Positions 35,001 to 38,000 of a stretch of DNA of 64,000 nt are shown here, in pieces. This stretch comes from Chondrosia reniformis (Eukaryota > Porifera > Demospongiae > Chondrillida > Chondrillidae), in contig OX359195.1 in NCBI GenBank assembly GCA_947172415.1, positions 1,860,001 through 1,924,000 on the forward strand, given 5' to 3'. The notes below the pieces were generated by a model. The model did not search any database. It had not been told where the DNA came from and saw nothing but the letters and a program-made list of their open reading frames with translations. Position 1 is the stretch's first letter, and every line of letters begins with the position of its first letter. A program made the position numbers and the translations under genes.

Positions 35001-38000
35001 ATTAACATGGGGACTTTTAAGAAGAGCGTCTCTACGTATCTCAAAAAAGATTTAGCCAGTAAGGTCAAAATATTATTAATTGATCACAAAGGGCTAAGGT
35101 TGCTTGTTAAATTGTACAACTAACAAAGGGAGATGTCCACACGTATTCACAGGTTTACATACATATATACAGTGTCACCCGCTTAATATATTGCCGGATA
35201 ATAGGCCAAACCGTTTATGATGCCACTGTTTTCTGGCACAAATTCGTCAGTATGGGGAAAGTATACGCATATTGTGCCAACTGCCAAATCTGCCATCTGC
35301 CATGTTTTTGCCATCTGCCATGTTTTTGCTACATTAGTACTTTCAGTACTTGTTAGGTAACACTTATTAGGCCAAACACTTTTCAATTGTTTCAAGTGAA
35401 GATGGCTAACAAGCGCAGAACAGACTTGTAGCCCAAAAGCAAGAAATTTGTATGTTTATGTATGTATGTACTATAGGGTACTAGTCAATCTTTAGAGGAA
35501 GTGCTGCTTGTTAATTCAATTCCATCAGCACTGTCTCCACTCTAACCACAGCCACACTGTTTGCTTAATAGCTGTTATATGATACTGATCACATTTCAGG
35601 GAGGAGACATTAAATTAAACAATTAGCAGGAATTAAAACTTTGTGACTAAATATTGTGTTATGCTGTAAAAAGGACGTATGATATATTTTGAATGTAGAA
35701 GATTGTATGTCATATAACATAACCACGCAAAAATACAATTACATGCCAAGGATTCACAGAAGATCAAGACAAAGAAAAAGACAGAGACTCCCAGGATCAC
35801 TGATGAAGGGTGGAATTCCCAGAAACGGCTGTCTGACCCAGTGGAGAAGAAGATGAAAGAAGGGAAAAGAAGGAAGAAAAGACTCCTGTATCTTCATCCA
35901 AAGCTCTCTTCAGGTTTAGTTCCCCTATAGGCTCTTTTAACAGAATAGGCATAGCATGTAGGAAAATGGTATCTTAGATTTTTCATGCTTATGAACTGTA
36001 CATCCGTACGTACGTACGTATATCCATTATGAGCAGTAGTATTGGGTCAGAATACGTTTACATACGTATGTACCTAAAAGGTAAATTATGTATAGTCAAA
36101 GAGAAGGAATCTATTGAGAAGTATGATGGAATGTTTCCTTATATTCTTGACCAATTAAAAGCATTTTCCTACAATTTTGGACATACGTACGTATACGTAC
36201 GTACTTTAATGAATGACAACGAACTCTCATTCAACCAACCTATAAAAACAGCATACCATTTCTATGTACACATATGTACACACAATATGTAATTGTGTGG
36301 TACGTATGTTCACACGTGTGATAGATCCAATATTAACATATTATATTTAGTTTAATACATGAGTGTGTGGCTGTGCATACGTACATCGTACGTACATGCT
36401 TTCTATAGGAACTACTCATCTTTGTACGTACATACGTAAATGTAGCATAACAAACATCCTTTGACATCTTTTGGATGGAACATGGCATATTGTGCATACA
36501 CATGTACGTTCGTTCACACACGTACGTACTTACGTACATACTTATACCCATTATAGGTAAATAAAAATACATACATACGTACGTACGTACATACGTATGT
36601 GGGTTACTGTCAAAAGGATAAAACATTTAGAGATCTGTTTATTGACACATTAATTAAACTAAACACACTCAACAAAGACTGGACACTGACATTTCAAAGT
36701 CAACAGGTAATGCTTGAGTTACACATTTCATCACTGCATGGCACACTGTACTGACTGGGAAAACATTGGAATGTGTGAAAAGGGATCAGCTTTGTATAGG
36801 GAGTATACAGGCATAGGGAGGAAGGCATGCAGATAGACAGGCATAGGGAGGAAGGCATGCAGATAGACAGGCATAGGGAGGAAGGCATGCAGATAGACAG
36901 GCATAGGGAGGAAGGCATGCAGATAGACAGGCATAGGGAGGAAGGCATGCAGATAGACAGGCATAGGGAGGAAGGCATGCAGATAGACAGGCATAGGGAG
37001 GAAGGCATGCAGATAGGGAGGAAGGCGGGCAGGCATATAGGGAGGAAGGCATGCAGATAGACAGGCATAGGGAGGAAGGCAGGCAGATAGACAGGCATAG
37101 GGAGGAAGGCATGCAGATAGGGAGGAAGGCGGGCAGGCATATAGGGAGGAAGGCAGAGGGACAATACTGCTTAAACAGAATTTTAAAATACACTACACTT
37201 ACGTACCTTTTGAAAGGATCATCTTTCAACTTTTAGAGCGTCAAAAGATACTTAGGTTCGACAAGAAGAAATCCTTATTCTAATATACACAACTTAGCAC
37301 ACGTACTACAAATTGCAAGGTAACACTTAAAAGGAACCCATCAAATCAACACTCCTTGTAGGTAGCTGATGAACAGTGTCACAGATTATATGGTATCCAA
37401 GCTAAAGTATTTCATTCAATGGCTTCAGGCTACTCATGGAACACCTCCTTGTATTACAAGACCTTATCACTAGATATCACAGACTCATGATAAACACAGT
37501 AATTAAAACACAATTATAAACAATACCACCAGGTGACAACTTTACTTAATTTGACCAATATAGCACTCACTGTTTATACGTACATACCACAAAAAACACC
37601 TACGTACGTATGTACGTAGTATGGATACTACATTCGAACGCATATACACATAGTGAGAACTTTGGATAAGGACACAATGTACATATACGTATATTGAAAT
37701 AACTAGCTACATATACAATTGACATACGTACGTACACATAACTGTCACTTGTAATAAGTTGCATAATAAGGATCTATAGGACTAATATGTTTACACAACC
37801 TAACAAACTGTACACATGTAAATGTACACAATAACACAACTAGTGCTTTAGATAAGGACAGTTACACAGACACTCATACACATAAACTGGTGTCAGAAGA
37901 TGACATCAAAAATAACATTGAAGGATTCACAGAAGATCAAGATAAAGAAAAAGACAGACTCCCAGGATCACTGATGAAGGGTGGAATTCCCAGAAACGGC

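Follow-up and report, generated by a model that had tools for sequence, protein, structure and literature searches.

Penelope-like elements (PLEs) are retroelements in which a single open reading frame (ORF) bears a reverse transcriptase (RT) and a GIY-YIG nuclease. Permuted PLEs, with the GIY-YIG nuclease placed before the RT, are said to have been described by Craig et al. in 2021, and these permuted-domain elements reportedly lack canonical hammerhead ribozymes. Elsewhere among PLEs, hammerheads working via dimeric motifs are known, and the available text of PMC7761336 calls their activity in vivo a mystery. For the lizard PLE PAc, the accessible part of PMC11167929 establishes that reverse transcription starts internally, and reports that the hammerhead needed protein and that hammerhead mutants still inserted. 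Hammerheads are also found in metazoan retrozymes, characterised in the accessible sections of PMC7229834 as tandem arrays of short units, each bearing its own hammerhead.

Here we describe a short dispersed repeat with a hammerhead-like core from the sponge Chondrosia reniformis, starting from a 64,000-nucleotide stretch of contig OX359195.1 (the window). Taking all the evidence together, we consider it fairly likely that the repeat derives from a permuted-domain PLE containing an active hammerhead, and that the RNA cut by this hammerhead is inserted into the genome.

A first-pass annotation of the window, made from its sequence, had proposed a dispersed repeat with an embedded hammerhead-like core, and this was borne out. 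A 37-base sequence comprising the core and the cut site has 839 exact occurrences genome-wide against 0 for its reversed control. This count far exceeds chance and confirms a real repeat that occurs throughout the genome. Of 1875 first-look candidates, the best 40 share 97-100% identity with the copy at 35745-35986 and are distributed across all 14 large contigs (C1-C14). Within the window the core CTGATGA..GAAAC..GTC is found at 35800-35833, with an identical core at 5831 and at 37971, and the fourth core-bearing copy that had been annotated carries a variant core at 39786; a regular expression for the full core matched these four and one unrelated place (42419). An earlier pattern, whose gap was fixed at 10 bases and which allowed 2 mismatches, found 7 places against 6.08 expected, its gap spacing being unsuited to the motif. 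Blastn likewise recovered the further fragments (Table 1). Copy limits needed small corrections, from 35750..35990 to 35745-35986 for the central copy and from 5767 to 5765 for the start of another. Between two of the copies lies a minisatellite (36807-37155) with a 30-bp unit present 7 times at 100% identity. A reading of the repeat as coding was considered and then dropped.

Table 1. Positions in the window of the repeat, its hammerhead-like motif and a related coding fragment
Feature	Position	Strand	Basis
Short PLE-end copy, from the inferred transcription start (GCCAAGG) to the 3' end (TTTTTCAT)	35745..35986	+	aligned loci share both boundaries
Hammerhead-like motif including helix I (5' strand 35788-35799, 3' strand 35834-35846)	35788..35846	+	listed pairs
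CTGATGA, core positions C3-A9 (customary numbering)	35800..35806	+	sequence
Helix II, GGG/CCC; A35807 and A35821 form a mismatch at the base	35807..35821	+	sequence
ACGGCTGT, predicted helix III: 2-bp in the monomer, 8-bp and self-complementary in the dimer (two G-U)	35825..35832	+	
Predicted cleavage between C35833 and T35834	35833..35834	+	~23 independent insertions elsewhere in the genome start here
Second copy, 96% identical, flanked by the CATTGAA duplication	37921..38162	+	
Third copy, 89% identical where aligned, with an 11-base gap adjoining the cut site	5765..6008	+	
Older copy split into 39739-39836 and 40031-40138 by an intervening inverted partial copy (39852-39921, minus)	39739..40138	+	blastn
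Old degenerate copy, 74%	22789..22913	+	blastn
3' fragment of the repeat, 78%	18832..18918	+	blastn
3' fragment of the repeat, 87%	34728..34778	+	blastn
3' fragment of the repeat, 90%	31459..31489	+	blastn
PLE ORF fragment, residues 347-415 of the PLE protein (P0001), 71% identity	108..296	+	tblastn

Type I hammerheads have a core of the form CUGANGA..GAAA..UH surrounded by three helices, and the sequence at 35800-35833 fits this rule. Its 3' part consists of GAA, a 2-bp helix III with the loop GGCT, and C35833 preceding the cut; helix I comprises 9 pairs in three blocks. The cut position reached here, 35833|35834, is the one that had been predicted in the first-pass annotation. The base of helix II is usually a G-C pair in hammerheads, but an A/A mismatch stands there in the sponge motif (A35807/A35821), as had been pointed out. 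Rfam hammerhead models gave no match at the gathering score in the window and none near the motif at E up to 10; this lack of a match at any threshold tried had been named beforehand as a result speaking against a ribozyme. Weak Rfam matches to sR55 and sR52 are attributable to chance, and a snoRNA reading was rejected.

As an isolated monomer the RNA is predicted to favour another structure, the hammerhead fold being calculated at -7.5 kcal/mol and the best fold at -14.4 kcal/mol. The octamer ACGGCTGT, made up of the helix III strand and the GGCT loop, is self-complementary across its 8 bases with two G-U pairs, which makes a dimeric ribozyme plausible. The dimer hammerhead with an 8-bp helix III has a calculated energy of -29.5 kcal/mol, compared with -15.0 for a pair of monomer hammerheads, the best dimer fold being stronger still at -37.6 kcal/mol. 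Judging from its sequence, the hammerhead probably acts as a dimer of this kind. All four octamer pairs are kept in 140 of 151 gap-free alignment rows, which form a biased sample, and in 15 rows (ACAGCTGT) a G-U pair is changed to A-U with pairing preserved. Compensatory changes among copies, the other sign of a ribozyme that had been looked for, are almost absent apart from this one wobble-preserving variant; since most sampled copies are near-identical and the older ones have decayed, covariation is uninformative here.

The repeat is probably the promoter-proximal end of an autonomous PLE, not a retrozyme. With its upstream part as the sole query, five pairs lying 3501-3533 bp apart were found among 40 listed places. 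In three of six fetched regions a full unit is preceded by a 5'-truncated unit; the direct repeats shared by the two measure 1214, 1148 and 989 bp and are 99.7-100% identical, and a 997-codon ORF is present. The other three regions do not show this structure. The element thus consists of head-to-tail units of ~3.5 kb (3501 bp) with a 5'-truncated first unit. Of 49 matches to the ORF product in a protein search, 8 cover all of residues 1-997 uninterrupted by any stop, with 99-100% identity. This single ORF carries a GIY-YIG nuclease at residues 126-159, which scores 23.3 bits against a cut-off of 22.6 when the N-terminal part is scanned and 21.9 bits when the entire protein is, and, behind it, an RT at residues 618-832 (RVT_1, E 5.5e-6, 26.7 bits, below the cut-off of 29.6), in the order seen in N-terminal-nuclease (Naiad-like) PLEs. 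Between the two domains, at residue 419, lies CECH, which we take to be the CxC motif of that group. No relatives of the protein were found among viral contigs or phage records, and PDB sequences gave a single chance match (E 0.17). Self-matches place four PLE copies (L061, L063, L065, L066) inside or next to host tandem repeats, settings that agree with a bias for repeats, presumably a trait of the permuted-domain clade.

Apart from the repeat, the window contains four tandem paralogous frames on the minus strand (300-1598, 6318-7631, 10731-12029 and 15117-16523), all with KDHSLNT-type repeats in variable number; two were scanned and both match Pfam sulfotransferase families. Immunoglobulin-domain frames lie on the same strand at 52258-52992 and 53997-54626, the first of which was scanned and matches I-set.

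The boundaries of individual insertions allow the short copies to be related to the full element. The alignment of 40 loci has a single sharp 3' end, TTTTTCAT, beyond which the DNA is unrelated. At the other side, 30 of the 40 start at or beside GCCAAGG and 10 extend upstream to varying points; these longer copies have TATATAA 30 bases before GCCAAGG. Flanking duplications are short and have CAT as their first bases, as in CATTGAA (37921-38162), CATGTAATGAT (L025) and CATAGATA (L036); an automatic search for them gave nothing clear at many of the 40 loci. A sample of 42 copies was drawn from 867 anchors, following contig order. Of the 42, 13 reach at least 9 bases upstream of the start, 19 start at -2 to +5 relative to the putative transcription start and 10 start 18-103 bases inside, 1 of these precisely at the cut. 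In L119 and L120, which belong to the ten, the element continues upstream, so that these two represent internal rearrangements. Because 5' ends lie near the presumed TATA-box start or at the cut and 3' ends at the PLE unit boundary, we regard the short copies as retrocopies of the PLE end.

Copies that begin at the cut were then collected genome-wide with a pattern of any base other than C directly before TGACCC, which matched 88 places against 0 for the reversed control. Fifty-three of these were inspected, namely 30 loci and 23 more places in 20 short stretches. A script scoring the 30 upstream bases against the element classed 29 of the 53 as joining foreign DNA exactly at the cut and 24 as internal (point mutants, duplications and deletions). 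Merging duplicated flanks left 24 independent cut-start insertions by script and 23 by eye, the L149 flank having been merged in the latter count for its resemblance to that of L092. Two other positions whose sequence likewise opens with TG served as control starts and gave 3 truncated copies among 21 seen of 22 places (+8) and 4 among 19 places, all seen (-4); one control, L159, may be a one-base deletion and not a true start. At the neighbouring positions -1 and +1 the totals are 10 and 12 places, which are pattern counts with mutants included and blind to flanks ending in T, and at -2 there are 28 places, of which 2 were seen, both mutants. A common subfamily without one base inside the search patterns is missed alike at -4, -2, -1, 0, +1 and +8, and many junctions are ambiguous by one base, a T common to target and element. 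At 3.5-4 truncations per site, the Poisson probability of at least 23 is ~1e-11, a rough figure drawn from few sites.

That insertions begin exactly at the predicted cut suggests that the RNA cleaves itself in the living animal, and that these 5' ends are the footprint of cleavage in vivo. The proposed hammerhead core stands by its sequence and by these insertion ends, and lacks the Rfam match and the compensatory changes. The A/A pair and the stronger competing folds of monomer and dimer also count against cleavage, as do, from PAc, the continued insertion of hammerhead mutants and the lack of RNA ends at the cut. With one of the 42 sampled copies starting at the cut and uncut starts far commoner, cleavage products are a minority of the templates; the data agree with those on PAc in making uncut RNA the chief template, and suggest in addition that cut RNA is used as well. 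Two cut-start copies have unusual surroundings: L080 is apparently inserted within an older copy of the PLE's upstream region, and in L151 (C7:5308259-5308459) the first 28 bases are amplified to a small tandem array.

A PLE of tandem units with a TATA promoter and a hammerhead cleaving in vivo is, in our judgement, the likely explanation of both the 240-bp and the ~153-bp copies. Based on the sequence, a TATA-box promoter near the unit end would drive an RNA that runs through the hammerhead, crosses the unit boundary and enters the following unit's ORF. The insertion ends suggest that the element's enzyme would begin reverse transcription inside this RNA, at the unit boundary TTTTTCAT, on targets giving duplications that start with CAT. 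The cDNA would extend to the 5' end of the RNA. In most cases this would be the transcription start, and the copies would be 240 bp long; at times it would be the hammerhead cut, and they would measure ~153 bp. Cleavage would take place in vivo, probably in a dimer with the 8-bp helix III and perhaps with protein help, and the cleaved RNA would remain insertable.

Of the other explanations, the one that fares best, while still unlikely, is that the hammerhead is inactive and the TGACCC 5' ends reflect RT stops or short target homology (CATG). Many flanks have CA or A before the T, such that homology to CAT targets may favour TG starts, and inactivity is consistent with the Rfam result. However, the controls starting with TG are truncated in 3/21 and 4/19 cases against 29/53 at the cut, and a pause at a structured motif should halt synthesis before this point, on reaching the 3' edge of helix I. 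More doubtful is an extension of the cleavage reading, in which the dimeric hammerhead of the permuted-domain PLE is active and the unit-length product of its cleavage becomes circular, the element's enzyme then copying it for more than one round; if true, this would account for partial-tandem insertions as well as for copies starting at the cut. We consider very improbable the suggestion, made in the first-pass annotation, of a small metazoan retrozyme, whose circular 240-nt RNAs would come from tandem hammerhead units and be mobilised by PLE enzymes. Copy size, the single core per copy and the presence of PLEs in the same genome fit it, and retrozymes are reported alongside PLEs in the accessible parts of PMC7229834 and PMC7761336. 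Nevertheless, among 100 listed places of 839 no same-strand neighbours are less than 1089 bp apart and a single pair has a spacing of 3501 bp, equal to the PLE unit length; with copies ending at the promoter start and the PLE unit boundary, and with the observed tandem spacing being that of the PLE unit, the retrozyme reading found no support. Equally improbable is that TGACCC reflects, without any cleavage, an additional transcription start or a single secondary source locus, which would likewise yield a sharp 5' end, but no TATA box lies at -30 of TGACCC, the truncated copies belong to at least two sequence groups, making a single source locus unlikely, and their 5' ends coincide exactly with a position predicted beforehand.

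If the cut-start insertions do record hammerhead cleavage in a permuted-domain PLE, their use extends beyond this sponge. The insertions form a natural library of 5' ends, so that a whole-genome tally can test cleavage without RNA, and the approach is applicable to any species having short PLE-end copies. The findings also suggest that the distribution of hammerheads includes the permuted-domain PLE branch, a point relevant to the age of the link between the telomerase-like enzyme and the ribozyme.

The sponge PLE resembles N-terminal-nuclease PLEs (Naiad/Chlamys) in having GIY-YIG followed by RT with the CxC motif in between; it differs in its near-canonical hammerhead core, as those elements reportedly carry no canonical hammerheads. 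Canonical PLEs, with minimal type I hammerheads, differ from it in turn by its N-terminal GIY-YIG. Like the metazoan non-LTR retrozymes described in the available text of PMC7229834, the repeat is short and low in G+C with a type I core and a short helix III; unlike them, it was found in no short tandem array and is tied to an ORF-bearing element. Closer similarities exist with canonical Penelope/Poseidon elements such as PAc of Anolis, which, in the accessible part of PMC11167929, share the tandem units with pseudo-LTRs, the hammerhead near the ORF start, the single RT and GIY-YIG ORF, the internal priming here proposed for the sponge, and the fixed 3' end. For PAc the same part of that source gives no RNA-seq ends at the cut, whereas the sponge PLE has insertions whose 5' ends lie exactly there.
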